A stretch of 64,000 nt of DNA, taken from Bradyrhizobium oligotrophicum S58. GTDB lineage: Bacteria; Pseudomonadota; Alphaproteobacteria; Rhizobiales; Xanthobacteraceae. Positions 8,165 to 18,624 of this stretch are shown here, one piece after another (the first letter of the stretch is position 1; every line of letters begins with the position of its first letter). A program made the translations under genes and the position numbers. The notes under the pieces are model-generated. The model saw only the letters and a list, made by a program, of their open reading frames with translations, was not told where the DNA came from and searched no databases. The stretch lies in contig NC_020453.1 of NCBI RefSeq assembly GCF_000344805.1, positions 6,543,001 through 6,607,000 of the forward strand. Direction: 5' to 3'.

Positions 8165-8272
8165 CTCGACACTGCCTTGCAGCGATTGTCGCGTGTCGAA
8201 CACTGACGCGCGTGACGGCCGCACGAAATCGCCTCGGGTTGACGGCAACTGGCGGACCCGTCTATTTTGATG

Positions 8273-8292
8273 TATACGAATGGATATAGCAC
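8273..8292. promoter_or_regulatory. Putative ModE box upstream of modA
   Basis: TATA-N8-TATAGCAC lies about 80 bp upstream of the modA ATG. The same TATA-N8-TATAGCA pattern occurs at 11249-11268 in front of the molybdenum accessory operon, which itself encodes a ModE-like protein. ModE represses molybdate-uptake genes when molybdate is plentiful. The left half-site here is weaker than in the second box. Confidence 0.65.
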
Positions 8293-8371
8293 GGCGTATG
8301 GCACCGGCCCGTGCGCCGGAATGAGACTTGCAATTCACCGAAACGGCCCCCTCGGTGGAAAGGACAATTTG

Positions 8372-9139
8372 ATGAGATTGATGCGCTTCGTCGCCGCCGC
8401 CCTGTGCGCGGCAGCCACTTTGCTGACTAGTGCGAGTGCCTTCGCCGCCAGCGCCAACATTGCCGTGGCGGCCAACTTCACCGAGCCGGCCAAGGAGATT
8501 GCGGCACTGTTCAAGGCCAAGACCGGACACGAGCTGGTGCTGAGCTTCGGCGCATCCGGACAATTCTACACCCAGATCAAGGAAAACGCGCCGTTCGCGA
8601 TCCTGCTGTCGGCCGATGACGAGAGGCCGAAGAAGCTGGTCGATGAGGGCCTCGGCGTCGCCGACAGCCGCTTCACCTACGCGATCGGCAAGCTCGTGCT
8701 GTGGAGCAAGGATCCGAACACGATCAAAGGCGAGGAGACCCTGAAGGCGAACGCGTTCAACAAGCTGTCGATCGCCAATCCCGCCGCCGCGCCCTATGGC
8801 GCCGCGGCGGTCGAGACGCTGAAGGCGCTCAAGCTCTATGACACGATCCAGCCCAAGATCGTGCAGGGCAACACCATCTCGCAGGCCTTCCAGTTCGTCG
8901 ATACCGGCAATGCCGAGCTTGGCTTCGTCGCGCTGTCGCAGCTGATGCCGAACGCTGGCGGCTCGCGCTGGCTGGTGCCGCAGAGCCTGTATAGCGAGAT
9001 CCGGCAGGATGCCGTGCTGCTGAAGGCCTCCGCCGGCAACGAGGCCGCGACCGCATTCCTGACCTTCCTCAGGAGCCCGGAAGCCCGTGCGGTGATTGAG
9101 AAGTTCGGCTATGCTCTGGACCCGAAGTCGGGCACCTGA
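8372..9139 (+). CDS. modA: Molybdate ABC transporter, periplasmic binding protein
   Basis: This 255-residue binding protein has a cleaved signal peptide (hydrophobic stretch ending SASAFA near residue 23). It then reads SANIAVAANFTEPAKEIAALF, the usual ModA opening with the oxyanion-binding serine. The SFGASGQFYTQI and NPAAAPYGAAAVE segments also match ModA. The ATG at 8372 is preceded by GGAAAGGA. A longer in-frame start at 8267 would place 35 residues ahead of the signal peptide and would overlap the ModE box, so it is rejected. modB follows after a 283-bp gap that holds an interspersed repeat. Confidence 0.95.
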   Translation: MRLMRFVAAALCAAATLLTSASAFAASANIAVAANFTEPAKEIAALFKAKTGHELVLSFGASGQFYTQIKENAPFAILLSADDERPKKLVDEGLGVADSRFTYAIGKLVLWSKDPNTIKGEETLKANAFNKLSIANPAAAPYGAAAVETLKALKLYDTIQPKIVQGNTISQAFQFVDTGNAELGFVALSQLMPNAGGSRWLVPQSLYSEIRQDAVLLKASAGNEAATAFLTFLRSPEARAVIEKFGYALDPKSGT

Positions 9140-9196
9140 GGTTGAATGAGCGAGACGCGATGCAGCATGATCGGATCGATGCGGCATCCACGATTT

Positions 9197-9370
9197 CCCC
9201 ACCCTCCCCTGGAGGGGGAGGGTCGGTTGCGAATGCAATGAGCAATCGGGGTGGGGTGACGGCGCTGATGATTCGCCCGCGATATCGGTCCGAGGAGATT
9301 CACCCCACCCCGCCTCGCATTCCGCTCCGCTTCATGCGAGGCGACCCTCCCCCTCCAGGGGAGGGTGAAG
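9197..9370. repeat. Interspersed palindromic repeat between modA and modB
   Basis: Two arms (near 9201-9224 and 9343-9367) are near-perfect reverse complements built around CCCTCCCCTGGAGGGGGAGG. A second nested pair, GGGGTGGGGTGA (about 9248-9259) against TCACCCCACCCC (about 9300-9312), lies inside. The whole could fold into one long hairpin of about 170 nt. Elements of this look are common between genes in Bradyrhizobium (from memory). It lies within an operon-like gene order, so the modA-modB transcript may be processed or attenuated here. Confidence 0.85.
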
Positions 9371-9422
9371 GTCATTCCGAGATGAGGACCGCAGACCTCA
9401 TCTCGATCAAGACGTCGCACGC

Positions 9423-10112
9423 ATGAACCTCCACGTCTCGGCCGACATCTGGCAACCGGTCCGGCTGACCCTCGAGCTCGCGGCGCTCACGACCGTCATC
9501 TTGATGATCGTGGGCACGCCGATCGCGTGGTGGCTGGCGCGGTCGCGGGCGTGGTGGAAGGAGGCGGTCGCAGCGCTGGTGGCCATTCCGCTGGTGCTAC
9601 CGCCGACCGTGCTCGGCTTCTATCTGCTGGTCGCACTCGGCCCGAGCGGCCCCGGCGGTGCGCTGGCCTCGCTATGGGGCGCGCGCACCCTCGCCTTCAC
9701 ATTTCCGGGCCTCGTCATCGGCTCCGTGCTGTTCTCGATGCCGTTCGTGGTGCAGCCGATCCGCAATGCCTTCGAGGCGATGGGCGAGAAGCCGCTTGAA
9801 GCGGCCGCCACCTTGCGCGCCTCGCCCTGGCGCGCGTTCTGGACCATCGCGGTGCCGCTCGCGAGCCCCGGCTTTCTCACCGGAGCGATCCTCGGCTTTG
9901 CCCACACCGTCGGTGAGTTCGGCGTCGTGCTGATGATCGGCGGCAACATTCCCGGCAGGACCAAGGTGCTGTCGGTCGCAATCTTCGACTATGTCGAGAC
10001 CTCGCAATGGGCCGAGGCCTCGGTGCTGGCGCTCGGCATGGTCGTGTTCTCGTTCTGCGTCATTCTCACGATGATGCTGATCGAGAAGAAGATGACGCGA
10101 AGCGCGTCATGA
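9423..10112 (+). CDS. modB: Molybdate ABC transporter permease
   Basis: This 229-residue inner-membrane permease has about five helices. The cytoplasmic coupling segment [20 protein letters not shown] (residues about 121-140) is the EAA loop that docks on ModC. The sequence [19 protein letters not shown] is typical of ModB. The length matches the family. Its stop overlaps the modC start (ATGA), so the two are translationally coupled. Confidence 0.96.
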
Positions 10113-11206
10113 GCACCGTCAAGGTCGATTTTAGCGGCACGCTCGGACGGTTCGAACTGAACGCGCGCTTCGAGGTCCCGGCGCGCGGCGTCACCGCGAT
10201 TTTCGGCCCCTCCGGCTGCGGCAAGACCGCCGTGATGCGCTGCATTGCCGGCCTCAATCGCCTCGCCGGCGGGCTGTGCTCGGTCGCCGGCGACGTCTGG
10301 CAGGACGAGAAGACCTTCCGCCCGGTGCACCAGCGGCCGATCGGCTACGTGTTCCAGGAAGCCAATTTGTTTCCGCACCTCTCGGTCCGTCGCAACCTGA
10401 TGTACGGCCATCCCGGTACGACAGGCCCCGCCGCGATCGGCTTCGACGAGGTCGTCGCGCTGCTCGGGATCGAGACCCTGCTGGAGCGCTCGCCGCGGCA
10501 TCTCTCGGGAGGGGAGCGGCAGCGCGTCGCGATCGGCCGCGCGCTGCTCAGCCAGCCGAAGCTGCTGCTGATGGACGAGCCGCTCTCGGCGCTCGACCAG
10601 ATCACCAAGGACGAGATCCTGCCCTATCTGGAGCGGCTGCACGCCGCGCTGGACCTGCCGATCCTCTACATCAGCCACGACATCACCGAAGTCGAGCGGC
10701 TCGCCGATCAGCTGGTGCTGATGCGCCAAGGCGCCGTGCTCGCGTCCGGCCCCCTGTCAGAGCTTCAGGCCGACCTGTCGCTGCCACTCGCGTCGTCGCG
10801 CCATGCCGCCGTGAGCCTCGATGCCACCGTGCGCGATCAGGACCCGACCGACGGCATGGCGACGCTTGACGTGCCCGGCGGCCAGTTCCTGCTGCCGGCC
10901 GAGCCGCTCGCGCCGGGCTCGCGCCGCCGCCTGCGCGTGCTCGCCGACGACGTCAGCCTCGCACGGGACGTGCCGAGCCGCAGCACCATCGTCAACGTGC
11001 TGCGCGCGAAAATCCTCGAGATCCGCAGCCAGTCGGACCACCGCGTTACCGCCCTGCTCGGCCTCGGCGAGAATGGTGAGGGCGCGCGGCTGCTGTCGCG
11101 CGTCACCCAGCGCTCGTGGAACGAGCTCGGCCTGCACGCCGGGCTTCCCGTCTACGCCCAGGTGAAGGGCGTCGCCCTGGTTCGCCGCGAAGATCCTGCC
11201 AGCTGA
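10109..11206 (+). CDS. modC: Molybdate ABC transporter ATP-binding protein
   Basis: This 365-residue ATPase powers ModAB. Walker A is GPSGCGKT near residues 33-40, the signature is [15 protein letters not shown] and Walker B is [12 protein letters not shown]. After about residue 235 comes the C-terminal Mop/TOBE regulatory region that senses oxyanion. I use the ATG at 10109 that overlaps the modB stop. An upstream in-frame start at 10007 lies inside modB and adds an unrelated arginine-rich stretch. The molybdenum accessory operon begins about 200 bp downstream. Confidence 0.96.
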
Positions 11207-11242
11207 TCGAACGCGCCTGGCCCAATCCACGACATCGCTGCC

Positions 11243-11279
11243 ATGTTATATACACGACAATATAGCATCCGATGTTATA
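11243..11279. promoter_or_regulatory. Putative ModE box upstream of molybdenum accessory operon
   Basis: The half-site ATGTTATA (11243-11250) is followed by TATAGCAT (11261-11268), whose reverse complement ATGCTATA differs at one base. A third copy ATGTTATA lies at 11272-11279 in direct orientation. The core TATA-N8-TATAGCA is shared with the site before modA. The operon it heads encodes a ModE-like protein, so autoregulation is likely. Confidence 0.75.
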
Positions 11280-11414
11280 TCTTAAACAATACAGCTAAAG
11301 GCAGATCAAGGTCGTGCCTACCTGATTTTCATCAACGTAATGAGAGAGTTGACCGGCGAACGGCCGTCTGGCCCGGCGCTTGCTAATTTGATCTCGCAAC
11401 ACGAGGTCATCAGC

Positions 11415-12275
11415 ATGAAAGCCGCCGTCACCTGGCATCCGAACGCGCCCAAGCCGCTCGCGCTGGTGCTCGGCACCAACGAGATCGCCTCCGCCGTCGC
11501 GGCCAGGCTGAGCCACGCCCGCTTCGCGCTCGTGCTCTGCCACGACGCGTTCCCTCCGGTGATCCGGCGTGGCATGGCTTTCCACGACGTCCTCTATGGC
11601 GAGACGCGCGACATCGACGGCGTGATCGGCTGCCGCGCCGAGGGGATCGCGGATGTCGTGCGGATCCATCGCGAGCCCGGCCAGGTCGCGGTGACCGGCC
11701 TGCATCTCACCGACATCATCGCCTATCGCTACCCGGCGGTCATCGTCGACGCCCGCATGCAGAAGCATCTGGTGACGCCGGATCTGCGCGGCGTCGCGGG
11801 TGTTGCGGTGGGCCTCGGGCCACGCTTCGCGGTCGGACGCAATTGCGACGTCGCGATCGAGACCCATCCCTGCGAGACCGGTGCGATCGTGGCGCAGGGG
11901 ACGACGCGGAACGCGGACGGCAAGGCGCGCGATCTCGGCGGCGCGGGGCGCGAGCGCTTCGTGTACTCGGACCAGGACGCCGTCTGGCACACGCCGCTCG
12001 ACATCGGCACCCGCGTCTACAAGGGGCTGCAGCTCGGCTCGCTCGGCGGCTCCCCGGTGCTCGCGCCGCTGGATGGCGCGTTGCGCGGCATCGCGCGTGA
12101 CGGCGTCCGCGTGCCGGCCAACGTCAAGCTGCTCGAGATCGATCCGCGTGGCCGTCACGCCGCCTGGACCGGGATCGATGAGCGCGGTCAGGCGATCGCC
12201 GCGAGCGTGGTGTCGGCCGTCCACGAGATCATGCAAACCGGTCGGAAGGCGGGCCGCGTCTCCGCCAACGTATGA
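11415..12275 (+). CDS. YqeB/EF2563-type molybdenum hydroxylase accessory protein
   Basis: This 286-residue protein resembles the family annotated as selenium-dependent molybdenum hydroxylase system protein YqeB (EF2563). It opens with a Rossmann-like LALVLGTNEIASAVAARL segment, then the family stretch RRGMAFHDVLYGE. Further on are GLGPRFAVGRNCDVAIET and a C-terminal barrel-like part with VLAPLDGALRGIARDGVRVP. Members associate with maturation of Mo-containing hydroxylases such as xanthine dehydrogenase; the reaction is not settled. I prefer the ATG at 11415 (purine-rich stretch ahead) over the ATG at 11340, which has no ribosome site. The gene lies behind a ModE box and before a DUF2478 gene and a ModE-like gene. 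Confidence 0.75.
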   Translation: MKAAVTWHPNAPKPLALVLGTNEIASAVAARLSHARFALVLCHDAFPPVIRRGMAFHDVLYGETRDIDGVIGCRAEGIADVVRIHREPGQVAVTGLHLTDIIAYRYPAVIVDARMQKHLVTPDLRGVAGVAVGLGPRFAVGRNCDVAIETHPCETGAIVAQGTTRNADGKARDLGGAGRERFVYSDQDAVWHTPLDIGTRVYKGLQLGSLGGSPVLAPLDGALRGIARDGVRVPANVKLLEIDPRGRHAAWTGIDERGQAIAASVVSAVHEIMQTGRKAGRVSANV

Positions 12276-12286
12276 GGAGGACTGCG

Positions 12287-12874
12287 ATGGGTATATCCGA
12301 CGTCGGGACTTGTCAGATCGTGGCGCTGCAGGGGGCCGCGTCCAGCGTGATCCAGGAGATGCTCGCCGAGTTTGCTACGCGGCTCGTCGATACGGGCCTG
12401 CGCGTCTCCGGCGTAATCGAGAGCAGCGCGGACAAAGCGAAGCCGTGCAAATCCATGATGCTGCGCAGTCTCGATGATAACAGCCTGTTCTCGATCTCGC
12501 AGGATCTCGGCTCGGGATCGCAGGCCTGCAATCTCGATCCGGAAGGCCTGGCGCTCGCCTGCGCCGCCGTGCAGCGGTCGATCATCAGCGGCACCGACGT
12601 CGTCATCCTCAGCAAGTTCGGCAAGCAGGAAGCGACCGGCGGCGGCCTTGCCGACGCCTTCGGCTCGGCCATCGCTGCGGGGCTTCCGATCATCACGGCG
12701 GTCTCGCCGGCTATGATGGAGGCGTGGGTGGGCTTTGCCGGGGCGTTCGCCGAATGCGTCCACGTCGATGTCGCGCGCGGCCCTGGCTGGGTCGAGGCGT
12801 GGTCCGGCCGCGTGACAGCGCCAACCGCTCGTGACATGATCGGCTTTCAACGCGAGCGGATCGGAATGGGATGA
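12287..12874 (+). CDS. DUF2478 family protein, molybdenum-linked
   Basis: This 195-residue protein is of the DUF2478 type, a nucleoside-triphosphatase-like fold often found beside molybdate genes. The first strand and loop (QIVALQGAASSVIQEMLAEF) sit where a P-loop would be but lack GxxGxGK[ST], so classical ATP binding is doubtful. Later segments DVVILSKFGKQEATGGGL and GLPIITAVSP are family-like. The ATG at 12287 has an AGGAGG site 6 bases upstream. An ATG at 12272 overlaps the previous stop and would include that ribosome site in its codons. Its end overlaps the ModE-like gene by 4 bp. Confidence 0.75.
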   Translation: MGISDVGTCQIVALQGAASSVIQEMLAEFATRLVDTGLRVSGVIESSADKAKPCKSMMLRSLDDNSLFSISQDLGSGSQACNLDPEGLALACAAVQRSIISGTDVVILSKFGKQEATGGGLADAFGSAIAAGLPIITAVSPAMMEAWVGFAGAFAECVHVDVARGPGWVEAWSGRVTAPTARDMIGFQRERIGMG

Positions 12875-13293
12875 AGCGCGAAGCTCAGATCGCATTGACT
12901 ATCAACTTCGGCAATGGCGGCAGCCTGTCGCCCGAGGATCTGCTGCTGATCGACTTCATCCGCAAGGAGCGCTCGATCCTGGGTGCCGCGCGCGCGAGCG
13001 GCATTTCCTACCGCAAGTGCTGGCTGATGGTCGATGCGCTCAACCGCACCTTCGAGACGCCGGTGTTCGAGACCCATCCCGGCCGCCGCGGCGGCGGCGC
13101 CGAGATCACGCCGTTCGGCGAGCGGCTGATCGCGCTGTATCGATCGATGGAGCGGCGCACGCGCACCGCCACGGCCGCAGCACTCGGCGAGCTGCAGAAG
13201 GCTACGGACCGTCACTATCAGAAGCGGGCCAGCGGCGCGGCCGAGGCAGCTCCGAAGGCCGAACCGCGCCGGGCCCGATCGCGACGCTCTTGA
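12871..13293 (+). CDS. ModE-like winged-helix regulator without molybdate-binding domain
   Basis: This 140-residue protein carries the N-terminal ModE/LysR-like helix-turn-helix: LLLIDFIRKERSILGAARAS, then GISYRKCWLMVDALNRTF, and the wing GGGAEITPFGERLIALYRSM. E. coli ModE has two C-terminal Mop domains for molybdate; here the remainder (about residues 95-140) is a basic, alanine-rich tail. So it either senses metal differently or relies on a partner. It overlaps DUF2478 by 4 bp (ATGA), and its 3' end overlaps the opposing di-Mop gene by 92 bp. Likely targets are the two TATA-N8-TATAGCA boxes. Confidence 0.85.
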   Translation: MKREAQIALTINFGNGGSLSPEDLLLIDFIRKERSILGAARASGISYRKCWLMVDALNRTFETPVFETHPGRRGGGAEITPFGERLIALYRSMERRTRTATAAALGELQKATDRHYQKRASGAAEAAPKAEPRRARSRRS

Positions 13294-13681
13294 TCATCGC
13301 CCAGGCGGACAAGTCCGGCTCCAGCGCCAACCGCTCGACCGACTCCAGCGTCACCAGCGCGTGCAGCTTCGTCGCGCCGAGATCGAAGGTGACGCGCACA
13401 TAGGGGGACTCGAGCGGCAGGATCTGCTCGATCCGGCCCGGCAGCCGGTTCGTAATCGAGACGTCCATCGGACGCGACAGCGCGATCGACACGTCCCGCG
13501 CCTCGATGGTCACGGAGACGCCGGCATCGATCGGGGCATCGACCATCGGAACCCGCAACTCGCCGTCGGCAAAGAACAGCGTCGACATGCCATATTGCGG
13601 ATCATGGCGCAGCACGCGCGCCGGCACGGTCGTGCTGAGAACGACAGATGGGGCTGAAGCCGATGGAGACTTGGCAGTCAT
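13202..13681 (-). CDS. Free-standing di-Mop/TOBE protein like the C-terminal part of ModC
   Basis: This 159-residue protein matches the C-terminal regulatory half of ModC without any ATPase domain. A first Mop-like unit (about residues 15-70, with PARVLRHDPQYGMSTLFFAD and VTIEARDVSIALSRP) is followed by a second (about 72-138, with NRLPGRIEQI and AWAMIKSVAI). Such domains bind molybdate or tungstate; ModG and Mop proteins store it. It starts 21 bp after the serA stop on the same strand. Its 3' end overlaps the ModE-like gene on the other strand by 92 bp. It may be a molybdate buffer, a detached sensor for the truncated ModE, or a remnant of a second modC. Confidence 0.75.
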   Translation of the reverse strand: MTAKSPSASAPSVVLSTTVPARVLRHDPQYGMSTLFFADGELRVPMVDAPIDAGVSVTIEARDVSIALSRPMDVSITNRLPGRIEQILPLESPYVRVTFDLGATKLHALVTLESVERLALEPDLSAWAMIKSVAIGPGAVRPSELPRPRRWPASDSDGP

Positions 13682-13702: not shown

Positions 13703-14950
13703 TCAGGGCCGGTCGTGGTCGTACAGCACGCGCACGCGGATGGTACCTTCGACCGCGCGCAGCTCCGCGAGCAGCTCCTCGCCCTCACCGCCGACCACAT
13801 CGGTTTCCAGCACGACATAACCGACCTCGGGATCGGTCTGCAGATATTGCGCGAGGATGTTGATGTTGTGCCGCGCCACCGCCTCGTTGACCTGCCGCAG
13901 CACGCCCGGGACGTTACGGTGGACGTGGATGAAGCGCGTGCCGGTGGGGCGAGCCGGCAGCTGCACCTGGGGGAAATTGACGGCGCCGAAGGTCGAGCCG
14001 ACGTCGGAGTAGTCGATCAGCTTGCGCGCGACCTCGCCGCCGATGCGGTCCTGCGCCTCCTCGGTGGAGCCGCCGACATGCGGCGTCAGGATCACGTTGG
14101 GCAGTCCCTGCAGCGGCGACACGAAGGGATCGGCATTCGAGGCCGGCTCGACCGGAAACACGTCGACCGCGGCGCCTGCGAGCTTGCCGTCGCGCAGCGC
14201 GCTGGCCAGCGCCTCGATGTCGACGACCGTGCCGCGCGAATTGTTGATCAGATAGGCGCCGTCCTTCATCTGCCGGAGCTGGCGCTCGCCGATCATGTTC
14301 GCGGTCGCCGGCGTCTCCGGCACGTGCAGCGAGACGACGTCGCTGCTGGCGAGCAGCTCGTCGAGGCTTTCGACCGGCTCGGTGTTGCCGTGGCGCAGCT
14401 TGTCGGTGAGGTCGAAGAAGATCACCCGCATGCCCATGGTTTCGGCGAGGTTCGACAGCTGCGAGCCGATGTTGCCGTAGCCCACGATGCCCAGCGTCTT
14501 GCCGCGCACCTCGCGGCTGCCATTCGCCGACTTGTCCCAGCCACCGGCATGCGCCGAGACCGAGCGCGGGAAGATGCGCCGCATCAGCATCACGACCTCG
14601 GCAATGGTCAGCTCGGCGACGCTGCGCGTGTTCGAATAGGGCGCGTTGAAGACGGGAATGCCGAGCCGCCGCGCCGCGTCGAGCTCGACCTGGTTGGTGC
14701 CGACCGAGAAGCAGCCGACCGCCATCAGCCGGTCCGCCGCCTGCAGCACCTCCGCGGTCAGATGCGTGCGCGAGCGAATGCCAAGCATGTGCACGCCCGA
14801 CAGCATCCGCTTCAGCTCCGCCGAGCCGAGCGCCTTCGGCAGCCGCTCGATCTCCGTATAGCCATTGGCCTCGAACATGCGGACGGCCGAGTCGTTCACG
14901 CCCTCCAGGAGCAGAACGCGGATCTTTTGCTTGGGCAGCGATAGCGGCAT
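13703..14950 (-). CDS. serA: D-3-phosphoglycerate dehydrogenase
   Basis: This 415-residue NAD-dependent enzyme makes 3-phosphohydroxypyruvate from 3-phosphoglycerate, the first step of serine synthesis. The NAD fold motif GIVGYGNIGSQLSNLAE is clear. The catalytic Arg/Glu/His set falls in NNSRGTVVD, the glutamate region near FPVEP and LTPHVGGST. A C-terminal ACT domain follows (about residues 335-415, FIHVHRNVPGVLRQVNEAV). The length is that of the E. coli type, without the extra intervening domain of long SerA proteins. It is transcribed away from the monooxygenase gene across a 290-bp gap. Confidence 0.93.
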   Translation of the reverse strand: MPLSLPKQKIRVLLLEGVNDSAVRMFEANGYTEIERLPKALGSAELKRMLSGVHMLGIRSRTHLTAEVLQAADRLMAVGCFSVGTNQVELDAARRLGIPVFNAPYSNTRSVAELTIAEVVMLMRRIFPRSVSAHAGGWDKSANGSREVRGKTLGIVGYGNIGSQLSNLAETMGMRVIFFDLTDKLRHGNTEPVESLDELLASSDVVSLHVPETPATANMIGERQLRQMKDGAYLINNSRGTVVDIEALASALRDGKLAGAAVDVFPVEPASNADPFVSPLQGLPNVILTPHVGGSTEEAQDRIGGEVARKLIDYSDVGSTFGAVNFPQVQLPARPTGTRFIHVHRNVPGVLRQVNEAVARHNINILAQYLQTDPEVGYVVLETDVVGGEGEELLAELRAVEGTIRVRVLYDHDRP

Positions 14951-15240: not shown

Positions 15241-17895
15241 ATGTCAGACGGAATGGTCGAGGCAGGCGCGTCGGAATCGACTCAAGGCGAAGTTCAGACG
15301 GTCGATGTCGGCGTCGTCGGCGCCGGATTTGCGGGATTGTACCTGCTGCATCGCCTGCGCAAGGCCGGTCTCTCGGCGGTGGCGCTGGACACCGCCAACG
15401 ATGTCGGCGGCACCTGGTACTGGAACCGCTATCCCGGCGCGCGCTGCGACATCCAGACCGTCGACTACAGCTACACCTTCGATCCCGAGCTCGAAACCGC
15501 CTGGCAGTGGTCGGAGAAATACGCCACCCAGCCGGAGATCCTGCGCTATCTCGGTTTCGTTGCCGATCGGTATGATCTGCGGCGGGACATCCGTTTCGGC
15601 ACCCGCGTCCTCGGCGCCGCCTGGGACCAGTCCAAGGAGCGCTGGCTGCTCACGACCGACAAGGGCCCTGCCGTCTCCTGCCGCCACTACGTCATGGCGA
15701 CCGGTTGCCTGTCGCAGCCGAAGCCGCCGGAAATCGACGGCGTCCAAGACTTCAAGGGCGAGATCTACTTCACCAGCCGCTGGCCGCATGACGGAGTCGA
15801 TCTCAGTGGCAAGCGGGTCGCCGTGATCGGCACCGGCTCGTCCGCGATCCAGTCGATTCCGATCATCGCCGAGCAGGCGTCGCAGCTGACGGTGTTCCAG
15901 CGCACGCCGAACTTCGCGCTCCCTGCGCACAATGGCCCGCTGCCGGCGGATCGCGCCGCACAGCTCGCGCAGGATCGCAATGCGCTTCGCGAGCAGGCGC
16001 GCTGGTCGCTGACCGGGGTGCCGATTCCGCCGGCCACGGAGTTCAGCTGGCAGATGACCGAGGCCGAGCGCCGCGAGCGCTTCGAGAAGCTGTGGGCCTC
16101 CGGTGATCTCGTCGGCATGCTGACGCAGCTCTGGGCCGACCAGGGCGTCGACGCGGACGGCAATGCTCTGCTCGCAGACCTGATCCGTGAGAAGATTCAT
16201 GAGATCGTCAAGGATCCCGAGACCGCCGAAGCGCTGACGCCCCACGACCATCCGTTCGGCGCCAAGCGTCCGTGCCTAGACACCAACTACTATCAGACGT
16301 TCAACCGTCCCAACGTCACGCTGGTCAATCTGCGCCAGGAGCCGATTGCGTCCATCACCGCGAACGGCATCAAGACGGAGAAACGCAGCTTCGACATCGA
16401 TGTCATCGTGTTCGCGACCGGCTTCGATGCCATGACCGGTGCAATCCGCGCCGTGCATCCGATCAAGGGACGCGGCGGCAAGTCGCTCGACGACAGCTGG
16501 GCGAACGGTCCGGAGACCTATCTCGGGCTGACCGTCGCCGGCTTCCCCAATCTGTTCCTCATCACCGGTCCCGGCAGCCCATCGGTGCTGTCGAACATGG
16601 CCGTGTCGATCGAGCAGCATGTCGACTTCGTCGTGGATCGCCTGTCAGCGATGCGCGAGGGCGGCTTCACGACCATCGAGCCGACGGACACCGCACAGGC
16701 CGGCTGGATGCGCCACATGGCGGACTGTTCGACGGTGACGCTGCATCGGCTCGCCAACACCTGGTACACGGGCGCCAACGTGCCGGGCAAACCGCAGACA
16801 TTGATGCCCTATACCGGCGGCGTGGGCCCGTATCGCGGCATCTGCAACGAGATCGTCAGCCGCGGCATGCTCGGCTTCAAGCTGACCGGTCCGAACGGCG
16901 CAACCCAATGCAACGACGGCGAGATCGTGAAGCTGCAGCCGGATGTCCGGCTGGTGCTGAACATGCTGACCGAGATGAACCTGCCGCCGATCGAATCGAT
17001 GGGCGCGCAAGGCGCACGCGACTTCATCGCCGAGTTCAATAAGACCCGGCCGCCGGGACGCCCCGTGGGTGAAGTGAAGGACGGCACGCTGCAAGGCGCC
17101 GACGGTCCGCTGCCCTACCGGCTTTATCGTCCGGCCACGCCGGGACCGCATCCGATCGTCGTCTACTTCCATGGCGGCGGCTGGGTGCTCGGCGACGAGC
17201 AATCGGACGATCCGTTCTGCCGCGACATGTGCCGCCGCTCCGACATGATCTTCGTCAGCGTCGGCTATCGCCATGCGCCGGAGCATCGCTTCCCGGCAGC
17301 CGCCGAGGACGGCTACGCGGCGACGCGCTGGGTGTCCGAGCACGCCGCCGAACTCGGCGGCCGGGAGGGCCCGGTGCTGGTCGCGGGCTGGAGCGCGGGC
17401 GGCAACATCGCTGCAGTCACCTGTCAGCTCGCGCGCGACCGCGGCGGTCCCGTGATCGGCGGCCAGCTGCTGGTGTGCCCGGCCACCGACTGCAGCTTCG
17501 ATCGCCCGTCCTACACGGACAACGCCACGGGCTACTTCCTGACGCGCTCGTTGATGTTCTGGTTCTGGGACATCTACTGCTCGCCGGCCGATCGCACCGA
17601 CCCGCGCGTGTCGCCCTTGCGCGGCAAGCTTCAGGGCCTGCCGCCGGCCTATGTCGTCACCTGCGAGTTCGATCCGCTGCGCGACGAAGGCATCGCCTAT
17701 GCGGACGCCCTCGCCGCGGCCGGTGTGCCCGCCGGGCAGCTCAAGGCGCGCGGCCATTTCCATTCGTCGTTCATGATGGTCGACATCATCATCACCGGCG
17801 TCGGCGGCCGCATGCAGATGGCGGAGGCGCTGCAGGCGTTCACACAACCGGCGGAAGAAGGCGGATCGCCGGAGATCAACGCCGCCGCCAGTTGA
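15241..17895 (+). CDS. Baeyer-Villiger monooxygenase fused to HSL-type esterase
   Basis: This 884-residue natural fusion has a flavin monooxygenase N-terminal part (about residues 18-545). It shows GAGFAG (27-32), the [15 protein letters not shown] motif and a second nucleotide site GTGSSA. The C-terminal part (about 565-884) is an alpha/beta hydrolase of the hormone-sensitive-lipase group, with oxyanion HGGGW near residue 643 and nucleophile Ser718 in GWSAGGN. The likely route is ketone to ester with NADPH and O2, then ester to acid plus alcohol in one polypeptide. The fingerprint FxGxxxHxxxW reads [11 protein letters not shown], with phenylalanine in place of histidine. No transporter or regulator for it is adjacent. 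Confidence 0.9.
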
Positions 17896-17985: not shown

Positions 17986-18624
17986 TCACGCCGACGCCGT
18001 GGCTTCGTCATAGGCGCGCACGGATGCGCGCGCGGTCGCACGCACATCGCTCGCAGTCATGCCCGGCTTGTACAGGCTCGAGCCGAGACCGAAGGCGCGC
18101 ACGCCGGCCGCGACGTAGGAGGCGAGATTGGTGTCCGACACGCCGCCGACAGCGCCGACCACGACGCCCTTCGGCAACACGGCGAGTTGCGCCGCAATTC
18201 CCGACGGGCCGAGCACCGAGGCCGGGAAAAACTTCAGAGCCGAGGCGCCGCAGCGCAACGCGAGAAATGCTTCGCTCGGCGTGAGCACGCCGGGCATCGT
18301 CACCATGTCGTAGGCCTGCGCCGTCGCCAGCACTTCCGCATCGACGTTCGGACTGACCATCAGGCGGCCGCCGGCCTCCGCGACCCTTACGCAGTCCGGC
18401 GCATTGACGACCGTCCCTGCGCCGATCAGGCACTGCTTGCCGAACCGTGTCGCCAGGCGCTCGATCGAGACGAACGGATCCGGCGAGTTGAGCGGAACCT
18501 CGATCATCTCGAAGCCTGCCTCGATCAGGACATCGACGATCCCTTCCGCCTCGTCGGGCTTGATGCCGCGCAAGATCGCAACCAGGGACCGCTTCACAAC
18601 CGGCCAGGCAACGGACTGTGTCAT
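17986..18624 (-). CDS. dgoA: 2-dehydro-3-deoxy-6-phosphogalactonate aldolase
   Basis: This 212-residue class I aldolase of the KDPG/KDPGal family splits 2-dehydro-3-deoxy-6-phosphogalactonate to pyruvate and glyceraldehyde 3-phosphate. The Schiff-base lysine is in ALKFFPAS, and the catalytic glutamate region is FEMIEVPLNSPDP. LVAILRGI and GAGTVV are family segments, and the NSPDP stretch favours the galactonate enzyme. It starts directly after the dgoK stop on the same strand, so they form one transcript. Confidence 0.92.
   Translation of the reverse strand: MTQSVAWPVVKRSLVAILRGIKPDEAEGIVDVLIEAGFEMIEVPLNSPDPFVSIERLATRFGKQCLIGAGTVVNAPDCVRVAEAGGRLMVSPNVDAEVLATAQAYDMVTMPGVLTPSEAFLALRCGASALKFFPASVLGPSGIAAQLAVLPKGVVVGAVGGVSDTNLASYVAAGVRAFGLGSSLYKPGMTASDVRATARASVRAYDEATASA

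Follow-up and report, generated by a model that had tools for sequence, protein, structure and literature searches.

The gene at positions 15241..17895 (+) of the window, which is the whole analysed stretch of 64,000 nucleotides from Bradyrhizobium oligotrophicum S58, carries in one chain a Baeyer-Villiger monooxygenase (BVMO)-like flavin domain and an esterase of the hormone-sensitive-lipase family, and its product is likely to be a catabolic enzyme of two successive steps, predicted to convert a ketone into an ester and the ester into an acid and an alcohol. In the proposed reaction, FAD bound by the N-terminal domain would be reduced by NADPH; a peroxyflavin would then form and be kept in place by R343 together with NADP+, oxygen would be inserted into a hydrophobic ketone, and the resulting ester would be hydrolyzed by the C-terminal domain with its S718-D811-H841 triad and HGGG oxyanion hole. 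What we infer here are the two activities, the use of NADPH, a ketone as substrate and the link between the two steps.

Architecture of the fused protein

The original prediction that a single protein houses both domains holds, as the open frame runs unbroken through 884 codons plus stop and corresponds to a chain of about 95 kDa. The BVMO-like flavin domain (15298..16887, residues 20-549; 17-550 by wider limits) is followed by an interdomain join of about 11-15 residues (16888..16932, residues 550-564), placed by the ends of the two fold matches, and by the esterase domain (16933..17847, residues 565-869; 561-869 by wider limits); these and all motifs given below lie on the + strand. Fold matching of the predicted model found both folds complete in the 884-residue protein, and the model confidence is somewhat lower around the short join.

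The C-terminal domain matches Pfam PF07859, adopts the fold of Est8 (PDB 4ypv), and possesses the alpha/beta hydrolase features of the hormone-sensitive-lipase family, namely the oxyanion-hole motif HGGG (17170..17181, residues 644-647, with H644), the nucleophile elbow GWSAGG (17386..17403) containing Ser718 (17392-17394), and, at the other triad positions, Asp811 (17671..17673) and His841 (17761..17763). HGGG, Ser718, Asp811 and His841 are kept in all fused esterase rows scored, comprising 66/66 rows of the forward (BVMO-esterase) order, with the query entered twice, and 6/6 of the reverse order. The LipP1 family NF058653 heads the NCBIfam list with 335.7 bits, which is under its curated cutoff of 350. 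While the whole fold, HGGG and the Ser-Asp-His triad are common to the bacterial Est8 family, the fused esterase differs by its position behind a BVMO and by the residue preceding the nucleophile in the elbow, which is Trp instead of the usual Asp/Glu. This residue is Trp in 63/66 and Glu in 3/66 forward fusions, and Asp in 6/6 reverse fusions. The unfused esterases scored have mostly Asp/Glu in place of the Trp of GWSAG, and an altered alcohol or acyl preference is possible.

The original prediction had suggested a search of genomes for this domain order; with a threshold of E<=1e-220, the fusion was matched in 167 of the 195 Bradyrhizobium genomes searched, and among the matches listed at this threshold all cover at least query residues 12-868 in a single open frame with no stop. 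At E<=1e-100, a match was obtained in 194 of the 195 genomes, a number that includes unfused paralogues, and B. oligotrophicum S58 itself has one match to the fused protein. A homologue from Bradyrhizobium sp. BTAi1 (L001) shares 93% identity. The BVMO-esterase order also occurs in records labelled Sphingomonadales, Reyranella, Aquabacterium or Acidimicrobiia (L036), as well as in Aciditerrimonas ferrireducens (L043). By the evidence of these sequence comparisons, the fusion is old and widespread. Comparison of the query with 13 homologues (Nei-Gojobori) gave dN/dS values of 0.063-0.267 for the BVMO part (residues 20-549), 0.070-0.233 for the esterase part (residues 601-850), 0.032-0.360 for the join region (residues 550-600), where they are low in most pairs, and 0.053-0.496 for the tail (residues 851-884). 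Purifying selection keeps both catalytic halves, the tail less so.

A frameshift or assembly error that joined two genes is ruled out by the low dN/dS and by independent genomes with an uninterrupted fusion, the listed matches running in one open frame between the limits given above; its probability is practically nil. Broken frames in two relatives demonstrate that errors happen, but in the opposite sense. These two (L033, L041) belong to the main fused clade, one coming from a MAG and one from Bradyrhizobium macuxiense, and their frames may have been broken by sequencing error or decay. Cleavage of the chain in vivo to give two ordinary enzymes would fit the short join and the lowered model confidence nearby; against it, most comparisons show purifying selection on residues 550-600, and the fusion has been retained across the genus Bradyrhizobium, so that we consider such cleavage very unlikely.

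The oxygenase domain and its fingerprint histidine

In translation, the N-terminal domain displays the FAD-binding motif GAGFAG (15319..15336, residues 27-32) and the NADPH-binding motif GTGSSA (15829..15846, residues 197-202). The type I BVMO motif [A/G]GxWxxxx[F/Y]P[G/M]xxxD is found at residues 56-70 (15406..15450), and Lys342-Arg343 (16264..16269), equivalent to K336-R337 of phenylacetone monooxygenase (PAMO), is invariant in the fused rows; the active-site Asp and Arg of type I BVMOs (PAMO D66, R337) are kept as D70, the last residue of the first motif, and R343. The equivalents of PAMO D66, K336, R337, R217 and W501 are invariant in 65/65 forward-fused rows, with the query entered twice, and in 6/6 reverse-fused rows; D66 and R337 appear in PDB titles, and K336, R217 and W501 are the PAMO numbers of the other three. 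The second BVMO fingerprint (15751..15786, residues 171-182) deviates from the strict form FxGxxxHxxxW[P/D], in which His is required by a BVMO census (PMC4498894), by having Phe177 (15769-15771) in place of the His.

By the strict motif the N-terminal domain is BVMO-like, and by fold, tree position and the other residues checked it goes with the type I BVMOs. The score against the pentalenolactone D synthase PtlE family NF045818 was 308.2 bits, under the curated cutoff of 1100. Steroid monooxygenase and PAMO (PDB 4ap3, 1w4x) have the same fold, FAD/NADPH motifs and catalytic Asp/Arg, and query residues 11-549 align with them; they differ from the fused protein in being single-domain enzymes of about 540-550 residues rather than two-domain ones, and steroid monooxygenase has the fingerprint His where the fused protein has Phe177. 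The expectation that both active sites are intact holds for the catalytic triad of the esterase and for Asp and Arg at the flavin site, but not for the BVMO fingerprint His.

In a survey of 149 BVMO rows, five others having been dropped (L041, L042, L046, L048, L067), the His is absent from all 70 fused rows (64/64 forward, 6/6 reverse). The replacements are F (53), V (3), S (1), R (5) and T (2) among the 64 forward fusions, and V (3) and I (3) among the six reverse fusions. The His is kept in 53/59 BVMOs with no esterase found alongside, a class limited by the DNA examined (often 1.5 kb per side), and in 14/20 with an adjacent esterase frame, adjacent pairs being enriched because 14 plasmid regions were chosen among matches covering both halves. 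Once near-copies were taken out, which left 84 rows, the His is present in 0/22 fused, 36/42 no-esterase and 14/20 adjacent rows. No His trend was seen for linked (fused or adjacent) versus unlinked BVMOs, nor for adjacent versus unlinked ones among the unfused rows.

The oxygenase half is probably functional, because BVMOAf1 from Aspergillus fumigatus, a fungal enzyme in which Gln replaces the His, is active but slow (PMC3762062). BVMOAf1 makes lactones and sulfoxides with a kcat of about 0.5 per s that does not depend on the substrate and a KM for NADPH of <5 uM, and the authors suggest that the rate is limited by a step preceding or following oxygenation; their survey, which tolerated the change of His to Gln, yielded an active BVMO (PMC3762062). 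BVMOAf1 resembles the fused protein as a 905-residue chain with a BVMO, a further C-terminal domain and a replaced His, but it has Gln, not Phe, it carries a putative polynucleotide synthase domain where the fused protein has the esterase, and the assays were made with the truncated BVMO part only. The effect of the His-to-Phe exchange is probably not a loss of activity but a slower or differently timed step apart from oxygen transfer. Against an active oxygenase stand the replacement of the His, which is a defining feature of BVMOs, and the Gln, rather than Phe, of the precedent. On the other hand, the oxygenase may have lost Baeyer-Villiger activity together with the His and now act as an NADPH oxidase, an S or N oxygenase or a structural partner, leaving the useful work to the esterase. 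Such a loss would be in line with the absence of the His from every fused row and with the title of a paper on cyclohexanone monooxygenase histidines, which speaks of a critical role; it is nevertheless unlikely in view of the invariance of all other catalytic residues checked in the fused rows, the strong selection on the BVMO domain and the activity of the Gln variant (PMC3762062).

Separate origins of the fusion

On the BVMO tree of 84 domains, built without the fingerprint columns, the fused state has to change three times. Of the fused groups, the first comprises the main BVMO-esterase clade, including the query; its sisters are L040, with a separate neighbouring esterase and Gln at the His position, and L045, with no esterase found alongside and Phe at this position. 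The second is a reverse esterase-BVMO clade, represented in the tree by L087, L093 and L124 (with the near-copies L090, L095 and L125); it adjoins L047, which has the His and encodes its esterase and its BVMO in two separate stop-to-stop frames that overlap. The third is a second BVMO-esterase clade with L086, L089 and L114, the last from a Bradyrhizobium plasmid. Pfam places both domains in 8/8 proteins scanned from the fused groups, in three of them in reverse order. On a tree of 56 rows (28 of the 84 having been removed for speed, long branches or as near-copies), one common origin is rejected both when all fused rows are taken together (p-AU 0.010) and when the forward fusions are taken alone (p-AU 0.026), p values weakened by the groups having been picked after an earlier tree had been seen; the forward fusions are united in 0% of 200 bootstrap trees. 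The three groups are separate in the esterase tree, too, with an SH-aLRT of only 93 for the third. The trees point to fusion having taken place independently about three times, once with the domains reversed. As regards the direct transfer of the ester that the original prediction held plausible, the two domain orders argue mildly against one fixed channel.

The His state changes ten times in all on the 84-row tree, and the His has also been lost without fusion (L040, L045, L061, L064, L109, L115 in its 8950 frame, L129, L133, L135, L136, L137 and L145). Since L040 and L045, both His-less and unfused, branch as sisters to the main fused clade, the loss probably preceded fusion there. A Pagel-type model gives its best fit (likelihood ratio 11.3, nominal p 0.024) when the origin of fusions is restricted to lineages without the His, the test being a custom script that is overconfident with few events, here about three fusions; independent-pairs tests of fusion versus His loss comprised 2-3 pairs only and had no power. 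An association between fusion and His loss, resting on about three events, is therefore no more than suggestive.

That bacterial BVMOs are often encoded beside esterases, as the original prediction had it, was confirmed by separate adjoining genes in other bacteria, among them plasmid-borne pairs from Rhodococcus, Cupriavidus, Roseomonas, Pararhizobium, Novosphingobium, Polaromonas and others; the proposed order of ketone, ester and hydrolysis agrees with this pairing and with the identities predicted for both domains. The same two families adjoin, unfused, in L047, L049, L113, L115, L141, L145 and L146. Hormone-sensitive-lipase-family esterases are often broad, and both domain orders exist, as might be the case if the two halves were active on unrelated substrates and the fusion set only their ratio or joint expression. 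We regard this as improbable, given that separate BVMO and esterase genes repeatedly adjoin and that fusion took place about three times, as would be expected if both steps belong together.

The reading of a tandem ketone-cleaving enzyme can be extended, although on balance the extension is doubtful: about three fusions in both orders, arising in His-less BVMO lineages, could represent a recurrent enzyme of this kind, in which an altered coenzyme or gating step suits the passage of the ester to the tethered hydrolase, and which was overlooked by surveys selecting for the His.

Known systems and genomic surroundings

Both domains and the pair of reactions are already known, and in the cases found ketones are degraded by a BVMO and an esterase that are separate enzymes. 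In Sphingobium yanoikuyae DN12, BpfC and BpfD, a BVMO followed by an alpha/beta hydrolase, act on ketone and ester in sequence (PMC12724174), but as two separate proteins, unlike the fused enzyme. No report of a natural BVMO-esterase fusion, of its several origins or of the missing His was found among the papers listed by searches of open-licence full texts, which is not proof of absence. The census cited above (PMC4498894) demanded both fingerprints, with the His, of every sequence it retained, so that the fused group would have been left out, and searches of this type would miss it entirely. If the two-step reading is true, a widespread natural single-chain version would be a ready tandem catalyst. 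Furthermore, the fused enzymes allow a test of the role of the His, as they have Phe, Val, Ile, Ser, Thr or Arg there with the other catalytic residues kept.

Within the window the fused gene stands alone between oppositely oriented genes, and the genes around it differ among relatives; no pathway therefore supports a guess at the substrate, and comparison of the neighbourhoods among relatives for a substrate clue gave varied pictures, none decisive. Judged by eye from translations, a SerA-like dehydrogenase gene (window 13703-14950, -) and a KDPG-aldolase-like gene (17986-18624, -) flank it, and genes resembling those of the molybdate transporter ModA, ModB, ModC and of molybdenum-binding proteins lie to its left (8267-13681). 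Among 46 loci compared, a TctC-type transporter receptor gene lies beside the fused gene in 14 and a LysR regulator gene in 12 (e.g. L009 2475-4618 for these neighbours), a recurrence seen in one Bradyrhizobium subgroup and absent from the window, one representative each having been scanned. In nine Bradyrhizobium loci (L013, L014, L016, L017, L020, L021, L026, L030, L035) the fused gene is followed within a few kb, on the opposite strand, by another BVMO gene, whose product is unfused and has the canonical His (FKGRSFHTFYWP or FKGRSFHTFHWP). The forward fusion of the third group on the plasmid of Bradyrhizobium sp. CB82 (L114 8019-10496) lies amid muconate cycloisomerase, ring-cleavage dioxygenase and P450 genes, and L139 (1501-4296, -) contains a frame of 932 residues in which the BVMO domain occupies only residues 380-931.
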